Shown here piece by piece: positions 7,473 through 51,392 of a stretch of DNA of 64,000 nt. The stretch comes from Salinicola socius (GTDB lineage: Bacteria > Pseudomonadota > Gammaproteobacteria > Pseudomonadales > Halomonadaceae). The stretch lies in contig NZ_MSDO01000012.1 of the NCBI RefSeq assembly GCF_001937195.1, positions 62,001 through 126,000 of the forward strand, in the 5' to 3' direction. Positions within the stretch are counted from its first letter, which is position 1. Each line of letters opens with the position of its first letter. The notes beneath the pieces are model-generated. The model was not told where the DNA came from, did no database searches, and saw only the letters and a program-made list of their open reading frames with translations. The position numbers and the translations under genes were made by a program.

Positions 7473-7638
7473 GATGATACCTCCTGATGGATCGATGCCA
7501 GATCGCTGGATTTCCCCACCAATCTGCGCTCTCCGACACGCCCCCGCCATTACGCTTTAGGCGACCCCGCACTCAGGGATCTACCGAGCTTCGACCAATG
7601 GCGAACAGTCACCAAAAACCGCAGTGCTACTATGAATT

Positions 7639-7671
7639 TAGAGATCAGCGATGGGTCTAGAGATCAGCGAT
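7639..7671. repeat. 14-bp direct repeat TAGAGATCAGCGAT, two copies
   Basis: Exact copies lie at 7639-7652 and 7658-7671, 19 bp start to start, ending 20 bp before the start of the 132-residue unknown gene. The position in the leader or promoter suggests either an operator pair or a local duplication. No regulator can be named. Confidence 0.6.
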
Positions 7672-7691
7672 CAAACAAGGAGGGCCTGATC

Positions 7692-8090
7692 ATGTGGCAG
7701 ACTCGAGAAGAAACGGCTCACAATCGCCCAATGACCGACGATAGCGGTTGCTGTCAGATGAGTTCGATCAACCTGCTGGACGACAGTGTCTCTACGCAGA
7801 AGGAAGTGCAGGAGCGCAACGTTCTTCAGCTCTACCTGCTGACGGTGCAGGTCAGGGCACTGATGGATGTGGCTTGTCATCAGGGGCATGCGGCGTTTTT
7901 GACCGAACGTCTGCGTTATCACACCGAGCAGCTTGAGTCGCAATTCTCCAACCTGGTCAATAAGCACAAAGGCGCCTCATACACCCGTCACTTCTACTCC
8001 CAGCAGCAGCAGCGCTTTGATGCTGAAATCGAAAAGCTCATCGGCGCTCTGGAATCACTTGGCGAGCAGTACAAACGGGGCGCGCGCTAG
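7692..8090 (+). CDS. Conserved-looking hypothetical protein, helical, 132 residues
   Basis: I do not recognise a domain. The protein is acidic to neutral, Gln-rich and strongly helical in character. The region from about residue 40 to the end (EVQERNVLQLYLLTVQVRAL through SLGEQYKRGAR) looks like one or two long helices, possibly a coiled coil. There is no signal peptide or membrane segment. ATG at 7692 follows AAGGAGG with ideal spacing; 20 extra in-frame residues upstream would cross the 14-bp direct repeat. It stands alone, divergent from the aldehyde dehydrogenase, with terminator-like hairpins downstream. Coding is well supported; function unknown. Confidence 0.7.
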   Translation: MWQTREETAHNRPMTDDSGCCQMSSINLLDDSVSTQKEVQERNVLQLYLLTVQVRALMDVACHQGHAAFLTERLRYHTEQLESQFSNLVNKHKGASYTRHFYSQQQQRFDAEIEKLIGALESLGEQYKRGAR

Positions 8091-8144
8091 GCTGTGTCTG
8101 AGAGGTCGACGAGCAAAGGCAAGACCGGGACGCGTAACTAAGGC

Positions 8145-8190
8145 AAAAATCGGCGAAGACGGACCGGGCTGGCGCACCCGCCGATTTTTT
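8145..8190 (+). terminator. Rho-independent terminator (A-tract/T-tract flanked)
   Basis: AAAAATCGGCG (8145-8155) pairs with CGCCGATTTTT (8179-8189) and is followed by a further T. The loop is 23 nt and can fold internally. The A and T tracts on both sides make it bidirectional. It lies 55 bp after the unknown gene. Confidence 0.75.
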
Positions 8191-8262
8191 AACCCCGTAG
8201 GGGCAAGCGCAGTACTGTTCAAACATAGCCTAGGTATCCCTTCTCTCTTTCCTCTTACTACC

Positions 8263-8309
8263 TTGACCCCGATACCGCATCACTGGCGCATCGGGGTCAA
8301 ATGCTTTTT
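8263..8309 (+). terminator. Second hairpin, TTGACCCCGAT/ATCGGGGTCAA with T-run
   Basis: An 11-bp perfect stem (8263-8273 with 8290-8300), a 16-nt loop, and TTTTT at 8305-8309. No gene ends directly before it. The 8091-8472 gap holds this hairpin, the terminator at 8145 and two parS sites; I see no gene in it. Confidence 0.5.
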
Positions 8310-8422
8310 GATTCCGGTACTTGCCATTTCGGATGGTGCCACGTGGGCGAACACAGCTTATTCTTGCCAGCGCGACAGTGTCTGCGGACAGTGGTGTTTG
8401 TGGGCGCAGTGTTTGCGGACAA

Positions 8423-8438
8423 TGTTCCACGTGAAACA
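8423..8438. other. parS site 1 (one mismatch)
   Basis: TGTTCCACGTGAAACA differs at one base from the ParB-binding consensus TGTTTCACGTGAAACA. It is intergenic, 27 bp centre to centre from parS site 2. Confidence 0.85.
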
Positions 8439-8449
8439 ATCTACCGTGT

Positions 8450-8465
8450 CGTTTCACGTGAAACA
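8450..8465. other. parS site 2 (one mismatch)
   Basis: CGTTTCACGTGAAACA keeps the full inner palindrome GTTTCACGTGAAAC; only the first outer base differs. It lies just after the asmA stop codon. Confidence 0.9.
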
Positions 8466-8472
8466 TGACTTC

Positions 8473-10539
8473 TCATTGGTTGCCCGTCTGAATCTGGCTC
8501 AGAAAGTCATTGCATGGCGTCGTCTCATCGGCGCTAGGGGAAACCAGTGCCAGTAGCGCCGCGGCGGGAGTCGCAACGGTCCCGAGGAAAGCGCCAATCG
8601 CGCCCCGAGCGAGCAATGACCCCGTATCGACACCAGGCGAAGGGTTCTTGAAGGTACCTTCCACGTAGAGCGGCGAGCGCAAGGTGAACACGCGCGCACC
8701 CTTGCTTTCCGGTTCGATGGTCAGGTCCAGCGCTTCGTTGGCGAAGTTGACGGTACCATCGATCTTGATCAGAGCGTTTTCCGTATCGATCAGGAAGAAG
8801 CGAGTACTGGCCAACCCATCGGTGACTTCCAGATTAGTGGCTGCACAGTTGATCTTGACCTGCTCGTCTCCGAACAGCTTGCCAACCAGATAGTTACCGA
8901 CATTGAGACCGGCGAGCTCCATCAGGTTCTGGCTGATGAGGCCATCATTGATCAGCATTTGAAGATTGCCGTCACTCGTCCCCAGCATGCTGGCTACCGA
9001 GTTGCCGGTGCCGCTCAGCGTGGCGTCTCCGTTGAGTTCTCCTCGGCTGTTTTGCATCAGCTCCACATCGGGAAACAGACGGCTCAGCATCAAGTGGCGG
9101 ATATGCATATCGATCCGGCTCTGCATCGGGCTCTGGCTGCCGTCGAGACGTAGTGTCGTATTCAGACTGCCGCCTGCAACGCCGAATCTCAGCGGGTCCA
9201 GCAGGATCTCCCCGTCATTCAGCGTGACATGCGTATAGATGTCTTCCAGGGGAAGGGAGTCACCGTGTTCGATGCGTTGTGCGGTGAACTTGACGTCGGC
9301 GTCCATCGTTTTCCATTGAGCCGTATCGAATTCCTCGACCGGCAGCAACTTGTCTTCTGGCTGACGACTGGCTTCACCCCGGTCGCTTTTTTCCGCATTC
9401 GAGTCAGCGCCTATCAATGGGGCGAGGTCGGCGAAGCGCAACTGCTGCGAGACGACTTCGCCCTTGAGCAAAGGTCGTGGTTCACCCATCCGATAAGTGA
9501 GATCGCCATGGATATCGCTGTCACCAATACGGCCATCAAAATCCCGGTAGCGAAAGGAAAGTGCTTCTTGGGTATCCAGATTGGCCGTTAGATGACCCTG
9601 TGTGGAGTAGGGTGGGGTATCAGGCAGCGTGACGCCGATGATGTCATAGAGATCGCCCAGGTTCTGACCCGAAAAGCTCAGATCCATGTCGATCTTTTTG
9701 GGTGCCAGGGGGTCTACCAAGGTGCCAGTGACGGAAACCCGGGTTGCGCCGGCTTCCACCGAAGCCTGGATCGGATAGGGTGCACCGCGACGTCTCAGGG
9801 CGGCCAGGCCGCCGAGCTTACCTTCTCCATCAACATTCTGGCGCTGGTACTCACCCTCGGCTTTCCAGCCAAATGCGTAATCAGCGATGTCCTGGTCGTG
9901 GACGGCCTGTTCGGCGGCGCCTTCATTCTCGGTGAGCTCGCTGAACGCGATCGGCTTGCCGAGAAGCGCGATCGTGGCATCGATATTGGCAGCCAAGGGG
10001 GCGTCTTCATAATGGACATCGACCGGATCGAAGGCGATGTCCCCGACATCGATCGTCCAGCCACTGCCGTCGTCCACCGGCTCGTCTGCGCCCTGGCTTC
10101 CTTTTTCGAGATCGAACGTCCAGTTGTTCTTGCCGTCTTCGAGACGCACCAGTGCCGCCTTGGCTCCCGAAAATTCGATATGAGGAATGGAGACCGTCTT
10201 GCCCATGAGCGGTATCAGCGATAGCTTCACATCCAACGAAGCGAGCTCGAGTAAATCCCTGTCAGTGACGGCTTCCGGGCTGCCCAGGTGAATGTCCTCG
10301 GCGTGAACGTGAGGCCATGGCACCCAGCTGCGCCACCCGGACTCGCCCTGCGGCGATTCCCACGAGACGGTCAGATCTCCGTCGATGGCGAAGGGTCTGT
10401 GAATCGCATTCGAGACTCGTTCATTGATGGTGGGCTTGAGTCGATTCCAATCGAATGTCACAACGATGATGATGAGGGCGATCATCAGCAACAAGACGAT
10501 CGCCACCACCCATAGCGCAATTTTCTTTCCCAATGTCAT
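8473..10539 (-). CDS. AsmA family protein (inner-membrane anchored, periplasmic)
   Basis: 688 residues. One N-terminal membrane segment (about residues 7-27, rich in L, I and V) is followed by a long periplasmic beta-rich region typical of AsmA/TamB-type bridge proteins, which are linked to phospholipid transport and outer-membrane homeostasis. The C-terminal DLTIEPESKGARVFTLRSPL with GTFKNPSPGVD is characteristic of the AsmA C-terminal domain. ATG at 10539 is chosen; the longer frame would begin at a TTG. The site GGACGG upstream is weak. It is monocistronic and flanked on both sides by parS sites. Confidence 0.85.
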   Translation of the reverse strand: MTLGKKIALWVVAIVLLLMIALIIIVVTFDWNRLKPTINERVSNAIHRPFAIDGDLTVSWESPQGESGWRSWVPWPHVHAEDIHLGSPEAVTDRDLLELASLDVKLSLIPLMGKTVSIPHIEFSGAKAALVRLEDGKNNWTFDLEKGSQGADEPVDDGSGWTIDVGDIAFDPVDVHYEDAPLAANIDATIALLGKPIAFSELTENEGAAEQAVHDQDIADYAFGWKAEGEYQRQNVDGEGKLGGLAALRRRGAPYPIQASVEAGATRVSVTGTLVDPLAPKKIDMDLSFSGQNLGDLYDIIGVTLPDTPPYSTQGHLTANLDTQEALSFRYRDFDGRIGDSDIHGDLTYRMGEPRPLLKGEVVSQQLRFADLAPLIGADSNAEKSDRGEASRQPEDKLLPVEEFDTAQWKTMDADVKFTAQRIEHGDSLPLEDIYTHVTLNDGEILLDPLRFGVAGGSLNTTLRLDGSQSPMQSRIDMHIRHLMLSRLFPDVELMQNSRGELNGDATLSGTGNSVASMLGTSDGNLQMLINDGLISQNLMELAGLNVGNYLVGKLFGDEQVKINCAATNLEVTDGLASTRFFLIDTENALIKIDGTVNFANEALDLTIEPESKGARVFTLRSPLYVEGTFKNPSPGVDTGSLLARGAIGAFLGTVATPAAALLALVSPSADETTPCNDFLSQIQTGNQ

Positions 10540-10631
10540 GGCCCGGTTCCCGTCCTTGGAGTGACTCTCCAAGGGTAGTCCAAGCGGAGCGCCAGGGTGG
10601 TGACCGATCGTAGTGATTGGAAGGGTTCTCG

Positions 10632-10647
10632 TGTTTCACGTGAAACA
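10632..10647. other. parS site 3 (perfect consensus)
   Basis: TGTTTCACGTGAAACA, an exact 16-bp palindromic ParB site, lies between the asmA start and the gmhB end. Confidence 0.97.
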
Positions 10648-10687
10648 TGAGAGGTCGGGTCGGCGTCACGTTATTGGGTGACGTTGC

Positions 10688-11239
10688 TCACACGTCCAGG
10701 CTCAGAAGGCGTTTGCTGAACGCCTCGAGGTCATCACAGATCCAGGTGTCGCTATACGCCTCGTCCAGCTCGCGTCGAGTACGCTGCCCCTTTCCGGTGA
10801 GAACCAGTGCCGTGCGGCATCCGCCCGCGATTCCTGCTTGTATGTCGCGAAGGCTATCTCCGACCATCCAGCATCCGTCGAGAGTCGGGATGTTCAGGCT
10901 CTTGCGTATCCGTATTAACATTCCTGCTCGGGGCTTTCGGCAATCACAGTTGTCGGCAGGCAAGTGAGGACAGTATTCGATGATCGCAATCTCGCCGCCC
11001 GCTTCATTGACCAGTGATCGCAACCGGCAATGAATTTGCTCGAGAGTGCGAGTGTCATAGTAGCCGCGCCCGATGCCGGACTGATTCGTGGCAATGGCAA
11101 TGGTCCAGCCGTTCTGGTGGAGCTGGGCGATCGCGGCGATCGCGTCAGGGTAGGGCTCCCATTCCGACAGCGACTTGATGTAGGCATCGGAGTCCCGGTT
11201 GATCACGCCGTCGCGATCGAGAATGATGAGCTTGGCCAT
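10688..11239 (-). CDS. gmhB: D-glycero-beta-D-manno-heptose 1,7-bisphosphate 7-phosphatase
   Basis: 183 residues, the normal length for this HAD phosphatase. It removes the 7-phosphate during ADP-heptose synthesis for the LPS core. The HAD nucleophile and acid are D8 and D10 in LDRDGVIN; ATNQSGIGRG is the second motif; KPRAGM and VGDSLRDI carry the remaining catalytic residues. The zinc loop CPHLPADNCDCRKP is present. The other heptose-pathway genes (hldE, hldD) are in the LPS cluster downstream. In Pseudomonas gmhB also sits near glyQS close to the origin. ATG at 11239. Confidence 0.93.
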   Translation of the reverse strand: MAKLIILDRDGVINRDSDAYIKSLSEWEPYPDAIAAIAQLHQNGWTIAIATNQSGIGRGYYDTRTLEQIHCRLRSLVNEAGGEIAIIEYCPHLPADNCDCRKPRAGMLIRIRKSLNIPTLDGCWMVGDSLRDIQAGIAGGCRTALVLTGKGQRTRRELDEAYSDTWICDDLEAFSKRLLSLDV

Positions 11240-11308
11240 GGAGGGAATACCAAAAAAAGAGTCGTGCCTGATTATCGAACGTCATCGCAAGGGACGCAAA
11301 GCCGGCGA

Positions 11309-11324
11309 TGTTTCACGTGGAACA
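11309..11324. other. parS site 4 (one mismatch)
   Basis: TGTTTCACGTGGAACA, one base from consensus, lies between the gmhB start and the glyS terminator. Confidence 0.88.
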
Positions 11325-11384
11325 TGCTCGTGACGGTAAATTGCATTGCAAGAAGGCTAAAAGTTAACAGGCTTTGAAAGGCAC

Positions 11385-11410
11385 AAAAAAGCCCGGCTCC
11401 ATGGCCGGGC
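11385..11410 (-). terminator. Rho-independent terminator of glyQS
   Basis: On the minus strand a 7-bp GCCCGGC/GCCGGGC stem (11391-11397 with 11404-11410) is followed by six U's (A-run 11385-11390). It is 30 bp after the glyS stop and separates glyQS from gmhB; parS site 5 begins 4 bp from its base. Confidence 0.88.
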
Positions 11411-11413
11411 TAG

Positions 11414-11429
11414 TGTTTCACGTGAAACG
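11414..11429. other. parS site 5 (one mismatch)
   Basis: TGTTTCACGTGAAACG has the complete inner palindrome with only the last outer base changed. It lies between the glyS stop and the glyS terminator, so it is transcribed in the 3' UTR. Confidence 0.9.
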
Positions 11430-11439
11430 TGCCTGTCGA

Positions 11440-13506
11440 TCAGGACTGGAGTTCGGCAATGTCCGCCACTTCGAGGAACAGCGACTGCAGGCTGGCGAGC
11501 AGCGCCAGGCGATTGGCCCGAATGGCATCGTTCTCGACCGCGACCATGACTTCATCGAAGAAGTGGTCCACGGGCCCACGCAGTGTCGCCAGGATGTCCA
11601 GCGCCTGCGCATACTCGGCCTCGCGGAACAATGGCTCGACCTGATCGCGACAATCCGAAACGGCGTTTGCCAGTGCGACTTCCGCGTCTTCGATGAGTCG
11701 ATCGCTGTTCACTTCGGTGCCGCCATCATGCTGCTGCTTGGCCAGGATGTTCGATACGCGCTTGTTGGCGGCAGCCAGGGCGCTGGCTTCCTCGCGCTGA
11801 CTGAAGCGATGGACGGCGCGCAGACGCCGGGCGAAGTCGAGTGGTCGCGTCACCGGACGCGCTCGCACCGCCAGGTAGACGTCGACCGGCAGGCCCTCGT
11901 CCTGAGCCCAGGCACGGAAGCGGTCCAGCATATAGGTCAGGACATCATCGACCAGGCCCTCCGACTTGGGCAGCTCCCGATGCTGGGACGCCGCTAGCTC
12001 CAGCAGTTCGCGCAGGTCGAGATCCAGCTCACCCTTGATCAGGATGTTGAGTACGCCGATGGTGGCGCGCCGCAGGGCGAACGGATCCTTGGCGCCGGTC
12101 GGGCGCTGGCCGATGCCGAAGATACCGGTCAGGGTATCCAGCCGGTCAGCCAGAGCGAGCGCCTGGCCGGTGGGCGTCCGAGGGATCTCGTCACCGGCGA
12201 AGCGGGGTAGATACTGTTCGTGAATGGCTTCCGCTACCGATTCCGGTTCACCGTCGTGGCGGGCATAGTAGGTGCCCATGATGCCCTGAAGCTCGGGGAA
12301 TTCGAGCACCATCTCGGTGACCAGATCGCATTTCGCCAGTTGGGCCGCACGCCCGGCCGCCTGGGAGTCACCGCCGATCTTGCCGGCAATGAAGCGGGCA
12401 ACGACTTCGCTGCGGGCGGCCTTGTCGGCGAGCGACCCCAGCTCGCGCTGAAACACCACGCTGGCCAGCGATTCACGACGCGCTTCCAGCGTCTGCTTGC
12501 GGTCGGTCTCGAAAAAGAAGGCGGCATCGGCAAGTCGTGGACGAATGACCTTTTCGTTGCCGTAAATGACCTGCTGAGGATCTTCGCTGTCGATGTTGGC
12601 CAGGGTGATGAACTGCGGCTTGAGCTTGCCGTCGGCATCGAGCAGGTGGAAGTACTTCTGATTGGCCTTCATCGAGGAGATCAGGCACTCGGCGGGCACC
12701 TCGAGGAAGCGTTCATCGAATGTGCCGGTCAGCGCCACCGGCCATTCGACCAGCCCGTTGACCTCTTCCAGCAAGTCTTCATCGATGACCGCCCGGGCGT
12801 CATGGACTTCCGCCTCGGCCAGGACCTGTTCACGAATGCGCTCACGACGGCGCTCGAGATCCACCAGCACATAGGCGTCTTCGAGCGCGGCCTCGTAGTC
12901 GTCGGCGTGACGGAGTTCGATCGGCGTCGGGGCATGAAAGCGATGGCCCAGCGTCGTACGACCGGATGCCAGGCCGAGCACGCTGGCCGGCACGACCTGA
13001 TCGCCGTAAAGCAGCACCAGCCAGTGAACCGGGCGTGAGAACTCGATGCGCGAGGCACCCCAGCGCATGTTCTTGGGCACGGGCAGGGCGTTGATGGCAG
13101 CGTTGAGGATCGCCGGCAGCAGCGTCTCGACCGTTTCTCCCGACTGCCGTTCACGATAGCCAAGCCAGGTACCCTTGTCGGTTTCCAGATGGATCAGCTC
13201 TTCCACCGTCACGCCGCAGGAGCGGGCGAAGCCTTCGGCCGCCTTGGTGGGCTGGCCTTCCTTGAATGCGGCGACCAGGGCCGGGCCGCGCTTTTCGACT
13301 TCACGGTCCGGCTGCTTGTCTGTCAGTGCCTCGATGCGAACGGCGAGACGGCGCGGAGAGGCGAGTGCGTAGGCTTCGCCATGGGGCACCTCGGCATCGA
13401 CGAGCCCCTTGACGACACCGTCGCGTAGCGCAAAGGCGAGACTGGAAAGGGCGCCCGGCGGCAGCTCTTCGACGCCCAGTTCGATCAGTAGGGTGTTGGC
13501 TGCCAT
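11440..13506 (-). CDS. glyS: Glycine--tRNA ligase beta subunit
   Basis: 688 residues, matching the bacterial alpha2beta2 GlyRS beta subunit (689 in E. coli). It works with GlyQ to charge tRNA-Gly. Typical features are TLLIELGVEELPPGAL at the N-terminus, a central HD-like region, and a C-terminal helical anticodon-binding domain ending in EVADIAELQS. Start choice: ATG 13506 gives the family N-terminus, while ATG 13512 overlaps the glyQ stop as ATGA and is closer to GGAG; either implies translational coupling to glyQ. The much longer in-frame extension into glyQ is not real. Confidence 0.95.
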   Translation of the reverse strand: MAANTLLIELGVEELPPGALSSLAFALRDGVVKGLVDAEVPHGEAYALASPRRLAVRIEALTDKQPDREVEKRGPALVAAFKEGQPTKAAEGFARSCGVTVEELIHLETDKGTWLGYRERQSGETVETLLPAILNAAINALPVPKNMRWGASRIEFSRPVHWLVLLYGDQVVPASVLGLASGRTTLGHRFHAPTPIELRHADDYEAALEDAYVLVDLERRRERIREQVLAEAEVHDARAVIDEDLLEEVNGLVEWPVALTGTFDERFLEVPAECLISSMKANQKYFHLLDADGKLKPQFITLANIDSEDPQQVIYGNEKVIRPRLADAAFFFETDRKQTLEARRESLASVVFQRELGSLADKAARSEVVARFIAGKIGGDSQAAGRAAQLAKCDLVTEMVLEFPELQGIMGTYYARHDGEPESVAEAIHEQYLPRFAGDEIPRTPTGQALALADRLDTLTGIFGIGQRPTGAKDPFALRRATIGVLNILIKGELDLDLRELLELAASQHRELPKSEGLVDDVLTYMLDRFRAWAQDEGLPVDVYLAVRARPVTRPLDFARRLRAVHRFSQREEASALAAANKRVSNILAKQQHDGGTEVNSDRLIEDAEVALANAVSDCRDQVEPLFREAEYAQALDILATLRGPVDHFFDEVMVAVENDAIRANRLALLASLQSLFLEVADIAELQS

Positions 13507-13508
13507 GC

Positions 13509-14471
13509 TCATGCGTCTCCTGAATGGGTTTCTGGCGTTTTCTGCAACAGCTCGCGGCGCAGCGCTTCCGGCGCCATCGGAAAGCCGGCAGCTTCGCGTG
13601 ACGCGTAGTAAGCGTGAGCGACCTCTCGCGCCAGCGTGCGCACTCTCAAGATGTAGCGCTGACGTTCGGTGACCGAGATCGCGTGGCGCGCATCCAGCAA
13701 GTTGAAAGTGTGTGAGGCCTTGAGCACCTGCTCGTAGGCGGGCAACGGCAGGTTGGCCTCGAGCAGCTTGTTGCATTCGCTCTCGCAGTGGTCGAAGGCT
13801 TCGAACAGATAGGGCACGTCGGCGTGTTCGAAGTTGTAGGTCGACTGCTCGCGCTCGTTCTGCAGGTAGACATCACCATAGGTGATGCGGCTACCGTCCG
13901 GCGCGATCGTCCACACCAGATCGTAGACGCTGTCGACGTCCTGCAGGTACATGGCGATACGCTCGAGGCCGTAGGTGAGCTCGCCGGTCACCGGGAAGCA
14001 TTCGATCCCGCCCGCCTGCTGGAAGTAGGTGAACTGGGTCACCTCCATGCCGTTCAGCCAGACTTCCCAGCCGAGCCCCCAGGCGCCGAGCGTCGGCGAT
14101 TCCCAGTTGTCCTCGACGAAGCGGATATCGTGAACCCGTGGATTGATGCCGAGACGCTCCAGCGAGCCGAGGTAGAGATCCTGCAGGTCTTTCGGCGAGG
14201 GCTTCATCACCACCTGAAACTGATAGTAGTGCTGCAGGCGATTGGGGTTTTCCCCGTAGCGACCATCGGTGGGTCGACGCGACGGCTGGACGTAGGCGGC
14301 GTTCCAGCTCTCCGGGCCGATCGAGCGCAGGAAAGTCGCCGGATGAAAGGTGCCGGCGCCCACTTCCATGTCGAGTGGCTGCAGCACGACACAGCCTTTT
14401 TCCGCCCAGTATTGCTGAAGGGCCAGTATCAGCCCCTGAAAGGTTTTCGCATCTGCCGTCGAGACTGTCAT
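13509..14471 (-). CDS. glyQ: Glycine--tRNA ligase alpha subunit
   Basis: 320 residues. [37 protein letters not shown] and [18 protein letters not shown] are hallmark class II GlyRS alpha sequences for ATP and glycine activation. ATG 14471 is chosen because the family begins a few residues before TFQG and because a -10 box at 14510-14515 would place transcription start near 14503, excluding the in-frame TTG at 14510. Cotranscribed with glyS. Confidence 0.95.
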
Positions 14472-14509
14472 TGACTGCGCACCGTTGCCCATGAATTCGT
14501 GAGCCGCCA

Positions 14510-14515
14510 AGTATA
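14510..14515 (-). promoter_or_regulatory. glyQ: Putative -10 box TATACT of the glyQS promoter
   Basis: TATACT on the minus strand lies about 38 bp upstream of the chosen glyQ ATG. I see no good -35 hexamer at 17 bp, so this is a partial promoter call. Confidence 0.4.
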
Positions 14516-19898: not shown

Positions 19899-21461
19899 TC
19901 AGTTGACGCCGTTCCAGAGTCGCTCCTGCAGGACATTCTCGCTGCGCATGCGCTGGTTCATCTCCTCGAGCGAGTGGCGCTCGACCAGCGTCGGCTTCGC
20001 GGAGAGTAGCGACACGCCCAGTCCTGCCCGATGATCGGGGATGGTGTAGCCCATTGCCTCCAGCAAGGTCGGAAGCACGTCCACCATGCTCGCCGGCTGC
20101 TCGATGACGCGGGGGCGCAGCCCGTTGCCCAGCATCATCAGCGTGTTTTCGCGGTCTTCGGCGATCAGATCCTCCCACGCCGAGTTCTTCATCGAGAGAT
20201 GGTCGCTGGCCACCACCACCAGGGTGTTGTCCAGTAGCCCCTCGGCGCGAAGGCGTTCCACGAAATTCTTCACCAGCCAGCCGGTACATTTGACCGAGTA
20301 GAGAATATCGGTGCCATCGAACGGGCCCTGATTGTCGATACAAGATTGCGATGGATGGCCGAAGGGCGGGTGTGCCGCCAGCGTCAGGCCGAAGAAGGCG
20401 TAGGGCTTGTCACTGGCATGCAGCTGGCGGATTCGCTTCTCGGCAAGACCGAACAGCGTATCGTCGTAGAGTCCCCAGTCGTTGAGATAGCCGGCCGGTG
20501 CCTTGCCTTCCAGCTCATCGCGACCGAGCACGGTATCGAAGCCATGACCGCGGTAGAACTTCGCCTTGCCGGCGAATTTCGTGCTGGCGCCGCCCATGTA
20601 GGTGAGATCGTAACCGCGTTCGTGCAGCAGATCGCCGAGGCAGTTGACGCCGGGGAGCACGTCCGAGAGCGGCTCGAACTGGTTGTCGTGCATCAGGCCC
20701 GCCGGCATCAACGGCACCCCGCACTGGCTGGCCACCATGCCGGCCATCGTCCAACCGGTGTTGTCGAGCTGCTGGACGCCCTGGAAGACCACGCCTTCCT
20801 TGCCCAACTGAGCGAGATCCTCGTAGGCGTCACCGAAGCGGCGGGTGTCGCTGTAGGTACGCTCGGTGCTCTCCATGTAGAGATAGATCAGATTAGGCGG
20901 CCGACGCGGCGCCGCCACGATCTCCGGTGGCCGATAGCGGTCGTTGAGCCAGGCCTCGTCATCGTCGATCACCGAAGCGCCGCGCAATGACAGTCCGAAC
21001 AGCAGCGGGTTGAAAGCGAGCAGAAACAGGCTCAGGACCCGCTCCCACAAACGCCAGCGGTGATCCGCCCGGACCAGCCACGTCACCGCCATCAGCATCA
21101 CGATCGCGGCCACGGTGTAGATCACGCCGGCGATCTGGCGGTCGGTGCTGCCGTTCTCCTCGATACCGGCCTGCAGATGAAAGATCACCGCCCCCAGATC
21201 GAGCTGGCCGAAGCTGTCGTCGAGATAGATGTAGACCCACCACAGGATCAACGGCACCAGCGACCAGGGCCACGCCTTGCGCTTCGTGGCACGTTGCGAC
21301 GGATGGCCCCAGTGGAAGTGGTAGCCGACGGCCAGCCAGGCGAGGGTGGTCACGATGGGGGTCCACCATGGCAGCACCCAGACCACCATGATGGCGTAGC
21401 CGATACAGAGGCCGATGTAAGTGAGTGCGCACCAACGTCGAGTATTGAGAGAAATGGGCAT
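19899..21461 (-). CDS. OpgB/MdoB-like phosphoglycerol transferase, membrane-anchored sulfatase fold
   Basis: 520 residues. Four or so N-terminal membrane segments precede a periplasmic alkaline-phosphatase/sulfatase-type domain. PNLIYLYMESTERTYSD, NTGWTMAGMVASQCGVP (its Thr being the likely nucleophile), LPGVNCLGDLLHERGYD and YMGGASTKFAGKAKF closely resemble phosphoglycerol transferase I, which modifies periplasmic glucans with phosphoglycerol. Position in an LPS cluster leaves open a role in modifying LPS core instead. ATG 21461 is preferred over ATG 21518 because the hydrophobic N-terminus follows directly; neither has a strong ribosome site. Confidence 0.8.
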   Translation of the reverse strand: MPISLNTRRWCALTYIGLCIGYAIMVVWVLPWWTPIVTTLAWLAVGYHFHWGHPSQRATKRKAWPWSLVPLILWWVYIYLDDSFGQLDLGAVIFHLQAGIEENGSTDRQIAGVIYTVAAIVMLMAVTWLVRADHRWRLWERVLSLFLLAFNPLLFGLSLRGASVIDDDEAWLNDRYRPPEIVAAPRRPPNLIYLYMESTERTYSDTRRFGDAYEDLAQLGKEGVVFQGVQQLDNTGWTMAGMVASQCGVPLMPAGLMHDNQFEPLSDVLPGVNCLGDLLHERGYDLTYMGGASTKFAGKAKFYRGHGFDTVLGRDELEGKAPAGYLNDWGLYDDTLFGLAEKRIRQLHASDKPYAFFGLTLAAHPPFGHPSQSCIDNQGPFDGTDILYSVKCTGWLVKNFVERLRAEGLLDNTLVVVASDHLSMKNSAWEDLIAEDRENTLMMLGNGLRPRVIEQPASMVDVLPTLLEAMGYTIPDHRAGLGVSLLSAKPTLVERHSLEEMNQRMRSENVLQERLWNGVN

Positions 21462-48578: not shown

Positions 48579-49754
48579 TCAGCGTTTGCCAATCCAGTTG
48601 CCGGGATTGATCGGATTGCCGTTCTGGCGCACCTCGAAATAGAGCGCCGGACGCGACTGGCCACCGGTATTGCCGACGGCGCCCACCGTCTGGCCGTTGG
48701 CGACCTGCTGTCCGGGATCGACATCGATCTGCTGCAGATGGGCATAGAGGGTGAGGATGCCGTCGCCGTGATCGAGAATCAGCAGGTTGCCGAAGCCGCG
48801 CATCCAGTTGGCAAAGACCACCCGGCCCGCGTGCACCGCCTTGATCGCGGTTCCTGCCGGTGCACCGATCAGGATCCCGTTGCGATTGACCCCGTCGCCG
48901 CTGCCATAGCTCGACAGCATCGATCCCTGAACCGGCCACGGCAGATCGCCCCGCGTCTTGCTGATGGCGGTCGAGGGTGGCGGCTTCTTGAGGTTGGCGA
49001 GCTCTTTCTGCATGCGGCTCAGCAGGCGTTCGACGTGCGCTCGATCCTGGTTGAGATCCTCGAGACGGGCCTGTTCGCTGTCATAGCGACCGTCGAGCTT
49101 GGCCACCAGCGCCTGCCGGTCCTTCAGGCTCGCGGCCAGTTTCTGACGCTGCTGCTCGAGGTCGGCTTGCACCTCATCCAGTCGCGAGCGGCGCTGATCG
49201 ATCGCCGCCAGATTGTCATCCAGCTCTCGGTTGAGCGCACGCAGCGCCTCGAGCCGTTCCCGACGCGCCGACGACAGCGCGTTGAGATAATGCTGCAGCC
49301 GATCGACCTCGGCCGGGTCGTCCTGGTTGAGCAGCAACTTCAGCTGGGGCGTGGTGCCGAGACGATAGAGCGCGTCGAATTGCCGTGCCAGTGCCTCGCG
49401 TTGTCGTTCGCGCTCGGCAGCCAGGGTCTGGCGCTGCTGCTGGAGCTTGTCGACTTCGCCATCCAACCGACCGCGCTCGGCCTGCAGCGAATCCAGGCGC
49501 TTGTGAGTCTGGCCGATGGCGGTCTCGACCTGCTCCAAGGCCTCCTGGGCGTCGCCGCGGGCCGCCTGGGTATTGCCCAGCTTGCCCTGCAGCGCCTGAA
49601 TGTCGGTCGCCAGGCTGTCCAGTCTGGCACGCGCCTCCTGGGGGTTGGCCTGACCCAGGGCCGGGCCAGCCAGCACCAGGCTGCCGGCCAGCAAGAGAGA
49701 GTATCCACCACTGCCTAGCCGGCACCGCGGGCGTCGCCTGCCTTGCCTATGCAT
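48579..49754 (-). CDS. envC: EnvC-type murein hydrolase activator (degenerate LytM domain)
   Basis: About 391 residues. Signal peptide (LLLAGSLVLAGPALGQA), then two long coiled-coil stretches (~30-250), then a C-terminal LytM/M23 fold. The zinc ligands of active M23 enzymes are absent: HxxxD is replaced in RNGILIGAP, and HxH by LYFEV. This matches E. coli EnvC, which activates amidases AmiA/AmiB at the septum rather than cutting murein itself. Start uncertain: ATG 49754, GTG 49757 and GTG 49766 are adjacent. It begins about 50 bp after gpmI on the same strand. Confidence 0.9.
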   Translation of the reverse strand: MHRQGRRRPRCRLGSGGYSLLLAGSLVLAGPALGQANPQEARARLDSLATDIQALQGKLGNTQAARGDAQEALEQVETAIGQTHKRLDSLQAERGRLDGEVDKLQQQRQTLAAERERQREALARQFDALYRLGTTPQLKLLLNQDDPAEVDRLQHYLNALSSARRERLEALRALNRELDDNLAAIDQRRSRLDEVQADLEQQRQKLAASLKDRQALVAKLDGRYDSEQARLEDLNQDRAHVERLLSRMQKELANLKKPPPSTAISKTRGDLPWPVQGSMLSSYGSGDGVNRNGILIGAPAGTAIKAVHAGRVVFANWMRGFGNLLILDHGDGILTLYAHLQQIDVDPGQQVANGQTVGAVGNTGGQSRPALYFEVRQNGNPINPGNWIGKR

Positions 49755-49802
49755 CACGTCGGGCACGCTCCATCGTGCTGGGCAGCGACAGGCGAGCGGA
49801 CA

Positions 49803-51392
49803 TCATGCATCGTCGATCAGCACGTTACCGGTCATCTCCTCGGGAGCGGGTTGTCGCAGCATATGCAGCAGTGTCGGTGCCAGATCGCACAGCCGACCGT
49901 CCGGCTTGAGCCTGACGGGCTTGTCGCGGCTGCCCTGACTTTGACAAACGTAGACCAGCGGCACCATGAAGGTGGTATGAGAGGTATGCGGATTGCCGGT
50001 TTCGGGGTCGACCATCATTTCAGCGTTGCCGTGATCCGCCGTGACCAGACATTCGCCACCGACTTTCTCGATCGCCTCGACCACGCGTCCCAGACAGGTA
50101 TCGACGGCCTCGATCGCCTTGGTGGCGGCGCCCAGGTCGCCGGTATGGCCAACCATGTCGCCGTTGGCGTAGTTGCAGATGATCAGGTCGTACTTGTCGT
50201 CCTCGATCGCCTTGACCAGCGTGTCGGTCAGTTCGAAGGCGCTCATCTCCGGCTTCTCGTCGTAGGTCTTGACGTCCTTCGGTGACTGGATCAAGGCCCG
50301 ATCCTCACCCTTGAACTTGGCCTCGCGTCCGCCGGAGAAGAAGAAGGTGACGTGGGCGTACTTTTCCGTTTCGGCAATGCGCAGTTGAGTCAGCCCATGG
50401 CTTTCTGCCACTTCGCCCAAGGTGTTGACCAGATCCCGGGGCGGGAAGGCGGCGGGCGTATCGATGTCGTCCGCGTACTGGGTCAACATCACCAGACCGT
50501 TGCCGGCCAGCTTGATGCGCTCGCCGCGATCGAAACCGTCGAATGCCGGATTGACGAAAGCGCGGGTCAGTTCGCGCGCGCGGTCGGAACGGAAGTTCAG
50601 AAACAGCGCGGCATCGCCCTCGGCCATGACGATCTTGTCGCCGTTGGGCCGCACGGCGGTAGCGGCGACGAATTCATCGGTTTCGCCCCGCTCGTAAGCG
50701 GCGCTCAGGCCGGCCTCGGCACTCTCGGCGACGTGCTCGCCCTCGCCGAAGCGCACCACGCGGTAGGCTTTCTCGACACGATCCCAGCGGTTGTCACGGT
50801 CCATCGCGAAGTAGCGACCGACCACCGAGGCGACGAAGCCGTTCTCGGCGCCCACCAGCTCGGCCAGTTTGGCGTTGGCACGCTCGATCGACGCACCGGC
50901 GCTCTTGGGAGCAGTATCCCGGCCGTCGGTGAACGCGTGGAGATAGATTCGCTTGGCGCCGCGATCGGCGGCCAGCGCTGCCACGGCCAGCAGGTGATCT
51001 TCATGGCTGTGTACGCCGCCGGGTGAGAGCAGGCCCATCAGATGGACGGCCTTGCCGTTGGCGACCGCATCGTCGATTGGCAAGGTCAGCGCTTCGATCG
51101 TTTTCAGCTCGTCATCCGTAATCGCCTTGGTGATACGGGTGAAATCCTGGTAGACGATCCGGCCGGCACCGATGTTCATGTGACCGACTTCGGAATTCCC
51201 CATCTGGCCCTCTGGCAGACCCACGTAATTGCCATCGGTATGAATCAGGGTATTGGGGTAATCGCGCTTGAGGCGATCCATCACCGGCGTGTCGGCGGCG
51301 GCGACAGCGTTGTTGGCGCTGTTGTCGTTCTGGCCGTAGCCATCGAGAATCAGCAGTGCGACGGGGCGCGGAGTGCGGGAAGTATCTGCCAT
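49803..51392 (-). CDS. gpmI: 2,3-bisphosphoglycerate-independent phosphoglycerate mutase
   Basis: 529 residues. Interconverts 3- and 2-phosphoglycerate using Mn2+. [19 protein letters not shown] carries the first metal Asp, [20 protein letters not shown] the phosphorylated Ser, [16 protein letters not shown] and [12 protein letters not shown] the remaining ligands. ATG 51392. Divergent from yibN-secB, and first of a gpmI-envC-ctpA set on the minus strand, a widely conserved order. Confidence 0.96.

Follow-up and report, generated by a model that had tools for sequence, protein, structure and literature searches.

A probable parS array around asmA, gmhB and glyS in Salinicola socius, a member of a genus without the recF parS pair

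Five clustered palindromes

Does the chromosome of Salinicola socius carry its centromere between orf152 and glyS, and how did the sites come to stand there and not inside recF, where most of the order has a pair of them? The stretch analyzed, here called the window, comprises 64,000 nucleotides (C14:62001-126000) of contig NZ_MSDO01000012.1 (C14, 133,863 bp). A first-pass annotation, made from the letters of the window alone, had described in it five intergenic 16-bp parS sites with zero or one mismatch. A search with TGTTTCACGTGAAACA returned these five sites within 3.0 kb, all listed here on the + strand: site 1 (8423..8438, TGTTCCACGTGAAACA) lies between orf152 and asmA, and site 2 (8450..8465, CGTTTCACGTGAAACA) 27 bp from it and 7 bp past the asmA stop; site 3 (10632..10647) is a perfect palindrome in the asmA-gmhB interval; site 4 (11309..11324, TGTTTCACGTGGAACA) is in the gmhB-glyS interval, and site 5 (11414..11429, TGTTTCACGTGAAACG) is flanked by the glyS stop on one side and a terminator-like hairpin on the other. 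Site 3 has no mismatch to the consensus and each of the other four has one.

No sixth match was found in the window when searched at up to three mismatches. Dinucleotide shuffles of the window contained a mean of 0.10 matches and a maximum of 1, and none of 100 held five. In the draft genome (4,174,124 bases in 156 contigs) a single further match was found at up to two mismatches (C101:2575, one mismatch). Sites scattered round the chromosome had been named beforehand as the outcome that would speak against a partition locus; five of the six genomic matches fell within these 3 kb. That the cluster arose by chance, or belongs to a repeat family, is extremely improbable: the shuffles and the conservation of the sites in genus and family, described below, argue against it, and no supporting point was found.

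Placement by open reading frames (ORFs) put two sites between orf152 and asmA, one between asmA and gmhB and two between gmhB and glyS, in agreement with the earlier description of all five as intergenic. A 207-amino-acid ORF (7933-8556) that covers sites 1 and 2 was rejected as a gene, as it overlaps orf152 in a different frame; its parS stretches read MFHVKQ and FHVKH, which is what parS encodes in that frame.

As judged from sequence, the five palindromes are very probably the parS array of the chromosome, of the standard ParABS kind. They are consensus palindromes clustered near the origin with few elsewhere, and parA and parB are both on the chromosome. Two points weigh on the other side. 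The assembly is a draft of 156 contigs, and sites in its gaps would escape detection; in addition, the matches of parA are to ParA/MinD-type models and fall short of the respective cut-offs, the best of them, to NF041546, reaching 121 bits where 180 is required.

Chromosomal setting

The contig shared by the array, dnaA, parB, parA, rsmG and mnmG supports the proposal of a chromosomal partition locus near the origin. The gene dnaA (C14:50066-51517) lies 19 kb from the array and ~10.5 kb before the window start, which accounts for its reported absence from the window. With dnaA on the contig, the reading does not depend on the suggested place of other window genes (rpiA, pepP, crc and rep) near the origin in Pseudomonas. 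The parA-parB pair is located 53 kb from the array. The product of parB (C14:16543-17457) scored 190 bits against TIGR00180 (cut-off 58) and, with a best E of 4.9e-57, matched ParB chains of known structure. Its GERRW stretch and helix-turn-helix region, the putative cytidine triphosphate (CTP)-binding motif and parS-reading part, respectively, align to those chains. The neighboring gene (C14:17486-18253), near rsmG and mnmG, was identified as parA because of its sub-cut-off ParA/MinD-type matches together with its place beside parB.

The order along C14 is atp genes, parB, parA, rsmG, mnmG, ~25 kb of other genes, mnmE, yidC, rnpA, dnaA, dnaN, recF, gyrB, ~14 kb of other genes, asmA, gmhB, glyS and glyQ. 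The names dnaA, parB, gmhB, glyS and glyQ were given by models above cut-off and parA and asmA by weak matches, while the remaining names in this order reflect a reading of the ORFs.

Two origin-like intervals, C14:20916-21828 and C14:49300-50050, were observed 28 kb apart. The interval upstream of mnmG holds six DnaA-box-like 9-mers (C14:21005-21415), each with one mismatch, and is AT-rich near 21,050; that upstream of dnaA also holds six (49588-49983), three of them perfect, and is AT-rich near 49,760. Cumulative GC skew along C14 is lowest at ~19-21 kb, on the mnmG side. The relative G064, assembled as one contig, likewise suggests a skew turn near mnmG, as judged from 71 kb that includes very little to the left of this gene. 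The skew minimum favors an oriC nearer mnmG than dnaA; the perfect boxes instead favor the dnaA side. The rpmH-dnaA interval lies 20-24 kb from the array, and the DnaA-box cluster on the mnmG side ~49-52 kb from it. A distance of a few tens of kb from oriC, as had been expected, therefore holds for a dnaA-side origin, while with the origin at the skew minimum the array may lie ~50 kb away.

Conservation of the cluster

Matches were present in all 18 genomes of the genus searched. In each of the 14, S. socius included, in which the matches could be fully seen, 3-6 sites were clustered within 3.0-6.2 kb; G070-G073 are outside this set. The arrangement was the same in all five relatives read (G027, G062, G055, G065, and G064), with one or two sites between orf152 and asmA, one between asmA and gmhB, and one to three, counted at no more than one mismatch, between gmhB and glyS. 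In the six genus genomes read, S. socius included, a site is found 7-20 bp past the end of glyS (that of G062 has two mismatches) and gyrB and glyS are 11-17.5 kb apart, the distance in S. socius being 16.7 kb. Site pairs 28 bp apart also occur in G027, G067 and G069, the asmA context having been read in G027 alone. At the family level, a match with at most one mismatch was found in 55 of 61 genomes and a match to the reversed control pattern in none of the 61; site 3 is the apparent counterpart of a site between gyrB and gmhB in several other genera of the family. A further 80 gmhB-related loci (49-56% identity), by their titles nearly all from Betaproteobacteria, were not used.

This conservation bears on whether all five sites are functional, or whether only part of them are and those with one mismatch are relics. 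According to the accessible parts of PMC4368675, any one of four origin-proximal sites is enough in Pseudomonas aeruginosa, which would leave room for relics here; the same source gives, for strong P. aeruginosa sites, the kinds of mismatch seen in the window, namely a change of an end base, and a C in place of T at position 5 or the position mirroring it. As 3-6 clustered sites have moreover been kept in every fully seen genus genome, relics among the five appear unlikely.

A different role would be that of operators, at which ParB represses asmA, gmhB or glyS, with segregation as a side effect. Sites 3 and 4 do lie upstream of the asmA and gmhB starts, in possible promoter places, and the available portion of PMC5521831 describes repression by P. 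aeruginosa ParB of promoters adjoining the intergenic parS3 and parS4. Sites 1 and 2, however, stand between two convergent genes, past the 3' end of each, site 5 is located past the glyS stop and ahead of the hairpin, and the number and exact place of the sites differ among genus genomes. A promoter scan (one found, compared with a mean of 1.7 in shuffles) carries little weight in either direction. Taken together, these observations make a mainly regulatory function very unlikely, and a parS array serving segregation is the reading retained here.

Proposed mode of action

ParB behaves as a CTP-dependent clamp. By analogy with the known family, the ParB whose gene shares the contig at a distance of ~53 kb would load at each of the five sites, close as such a clamp and slide onto the flanking asmA-gmhB-glyS DNA. 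The five sites would jointly nucleate one partition complex, and ParA would then separate the sister complexes soon after the region has been replicated. Loading of ParB at parS, its sliding and ParA-driven separation are described in the part of PMC7022226 that was accessible.

Absence of the recF pair from the genus

Each of the first 12 relatives examined from other genera carries a pair of parS sites within recF, spaced 630 bp from each other. Both follow the recF reading frame, in which they encode FHV(E/K), at residues ~144 and ~354 of the protein. The 630-bp distance was rejected as a spacing signal of its own, as it equals 210 recF codons and differs in other families. The order was then covered by 115 genomes, of which 112 had a recF match and 108 were read, four fragmentary matches (G095, G104, G124, and G144) being left out. 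At no more than one mismatch to TGTTYCACGTGRAACA, both recF sites were present in 88 of the 108, the second only in nine, the first only in five (in one of these, G086, the contig ends ahead of the second site) and neither in six. Of the 44 readable families, 40 include one or more genomes with both sites.

Within two mismatches, the 178 genomes read from order, family and genus have the first site in 139 cases and the second in 144. Bases 2-4, 6, 7 and 13-15 were invariant at both, two of them being third codon positions, and position 5, also a third codon position, varied freely between T and C. This illustrates constraint on the recF bases and does not test it, as the two-mismatch filter itself favors such an outcome.

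In the genus of S. socius, none of the 18 genomes had either recF site within one mismatch. The place at residue 144 showed 2-7 mismatches (the closest remnant, with 2, in G065) and that at residue 354 at least 10 in register. In S. socius itself the mismatches number 4 at the former place and 11 at the latter, and a recF array of the Pseudomonas type was thus not found in it. In a midpoint-rooted protein tree built from 76 RecF rows, the 18 genomes formed one group (100/100), whose place among the other genera had weak support. Since most of the order has the recF pair that is absent here, the present array appears to represent no more than a part of an ancestral array.

In the family draw of 61 genomes, 42 had both recF sites, nine had one and ten had none. 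One family genome, G017, carries eight perfect parS sites over 82 kb (G017:C12:6635-88459, of which 1-80000 was read), unclustered and none of them in recF. In genus g6, the recF pair was observed together with two or three sites ~46-47 kb off on the same contig (G057, G045, and G030), and a lone TGTTTCATGTGAAACA site ~12 kb away.

recF sites and gyrB-glyS gene order

Within the family, the recF pair was compared with the distance between gyrB and glyS. Where this gap was no more than 3.3 kb, both recF sites were present in 25 of 25 measured genomes. Both were present in none of 12 genomes outside the genus in which the gap exceeded 5 kb or glyS lay off the stretch (G009, with a measured gap of 5.5 kb; ten without glyS in the 10.4-10.6 kb read past gyrB; and G024, without gmhB or glyS in the 4.4 kb read), and in none of six genus genomes with gaps of 11.0-17.5 kb. 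G006, whose stretch ends before glyS, was left out, and the other family genomes are outside the measured set. Shared ancestry reduces this association to a handful of events, not 43. The pattern suggests that within the family the recF pair and the gmhB-glyS sites may work as one short array.

Outside the family, 78 stretches of the order were available, gyrB being read in 77 and lacking in one. Both recF sites were found in 32 of 38 with a gap of no more than 3.3 kb, 4 of 4 with 3.3-5 kb, 6 of 6 with more than 5 kb, 15 of 17 without glyS in at least 8 kb past gyrB, and 10 of 12 that were too short to tell. A general rule that break-up of gyrB-glyS leads to loss of the recF pair was rejected: it holds in the measured family genomes and is contradicted in the order.

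A sixth site in hyi

The one match outside the cluster (G000:C101:2575-2590; L006:1501-1516) is on a contig other than C14 and is coding, in hyi, whose product scored above the cut-off of the 2-oxo-tetronate isomerase model NF043033. Of the 18 genus genomes, 15 contain a full-length ortholog, as do 10 of 10 of genus g2. In 19 of these 25 (10 of 15 and 9 of 10, respectively) the motif departs from the consensus by a single mismatch, which falls on position 7 in seven and on the mirror position 10 in twelve. None of the 25 has a perfect motif; that of G186 has three mismatches, and the motif is missing from five (G043, G071, G063, G064, and G073). In 21 orthologs read from other genera it was not found, the aligned place showing 7-13 mismatches.

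The motif codons GTT, GAA and ACA are identical in the 19 orthologs, within a flanking loop that varies in length and sequence, even though they are unfavored choices; their shares among the V, E and T codons of the hyi genes, motif codons counted in, are 0.107, 0.348 and 0.124. This points to selection on the motif at the DNA level, although the 19 share ancestry. The hyi gene was 57-143 kb from the array in nine genomes with both on one contig. Solitary one-mismatch sites were also seen ~49-57 kb from the cluster at G063:C17:437118, G064:C1:108798 and G066:C11:169051; hyi lacks the site in G063 and G064, and no hyi was found in G066.

History of the array

Comparison of these genomes suggests an ancestor with two sites in recF and further sites around gmhB. 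The steps that followed, whatever their order, would have been the insertion of 11-17.5 kb between gyrB and glyS, decay of the recF pair and a gain of sites beyond asmA, the outcome being a centromere that stands apart from the dnaA-recF-gyrB genes. A bolder proposal is that of a natural displacement of the centromere as a coupled event, in which the recF pair was lost with the break-up of gyrB-glyS, the centromere came to rest on the outer intergenic sites, some of them new; the separate hyi parS would be held one mismatch short of perfect for a function that calls for weak ParB binding. This should be regarded as tentative, and is on balance doubtful: in the order outside the family both recF sites were present in 21 of 23 stretches with a broken neighborhood versus 32 of 38 with an intact one, and it is this lack of a gene-order link in the order-wide count that lowers its probability. 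What is new here is the history of the array; the array itself is ordinary, with nothing outside the known ParABS kind.

Comparison with known systems

The literature cited in this section was available in part, and the comparisons hold for the accessible text. The array resembles parS1-parS4 of P. aeruginosa, origin-proximal, near-perfect 16-bp palindromes in a dnaA-recF-gyrB-PA0006-glyS-glyQ neighborhood, with parAB on the opposite flank of the origin and further imperfect sites elsewhere, mostly coding (PMC4368675, PMC5521831, PMC3909081). In that species, unlike here, parS1 and parS2 lie within recF (PMC5521831, PMC3909081) and parS3 and parS4 before PA0011 and PA0013, past glyQ (PMC4368675, PMC5521831, PMC3909081); in S. 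socius recF is without sites, the five are intergenic between orf152 and glyS, and gyrB and glyS are 16.7 kb apart. P. aeruginosa coding sites with central mismatches are described as binding more weakly in vitro and as no replacement for the four main sites (PMC4368675). The arrays of Bacillus subtilis and Caulobacter share the 16-bp consensus (TGTTNCACGTGAAACA for B. subtilis, PMC7022226) and the clustering at the origin, and differ in gene context. In Caulobacter, extra parS insertions mapped by transposon sequencing have a hot spot in the recF-gyrB region (PMC5815017), whereas the genus of S. socius has no recF sites. A literature search on parS with Halomonas returned, among the titles listed, none on a chromosomal array, and one on recF parS sites beyond Pseudomonas, with subscription journals mostly uncovered, gave only the P. 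aeruginosa statements and the Caulobacter hot spot.

The genus thus offers a natural experiment on the placement of parS relative to oriC and on why sites lie inside recF, questions for which bench work has moved the sites instead. With the recF pair absent and the cluster standing 20-50 kb from the origin, as against genera that keep the pair, the position, number and coding context of the sites become separable, and the hyi site provides a way to ask what a conserved yet imperfect parS does.

Genes flanking the sites

The ORF orf152 (7632..8090, + strand) had no NCBIfam match and is present in all five relatives of the genus read. On the - strand, asmA (8473..10572), the gene of an AsmA-like protein, was named from a weak match to NF008091, far under cut-off; it occupies the same place in all six genus genomes read, and tblastn (E 1e-10) found no match to it in 110 stretches of other genera and families. 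Its ORF start at 10572 and the gmhB stop at 10688 bound the asmA-gmhB gap, and the gmhB start at 11239 and the glyS stop at 11440 the next. The gmhB gene (10688..11239, - strand) encodes a heptose bisphosphate phosphatase (NF006506, above cut-off). The hairpin past site 5 (11390..11411, - strand), a possible terminator of the glyS transcript, was found by a consensus scan alone, which returned five terminator-like structures in the region compared with a mean of 3.2 in shuffles. The glyS ORF (11440..13776, - strand) matches TIGR00211 above cut-off over residues 95-776, and the real start is probably near residue 95, where the family match begins. The glyQ ORF (13509..14510, - strand), taken from an upstream start, matches TIGR00388 above cut-off over residues 22-313.

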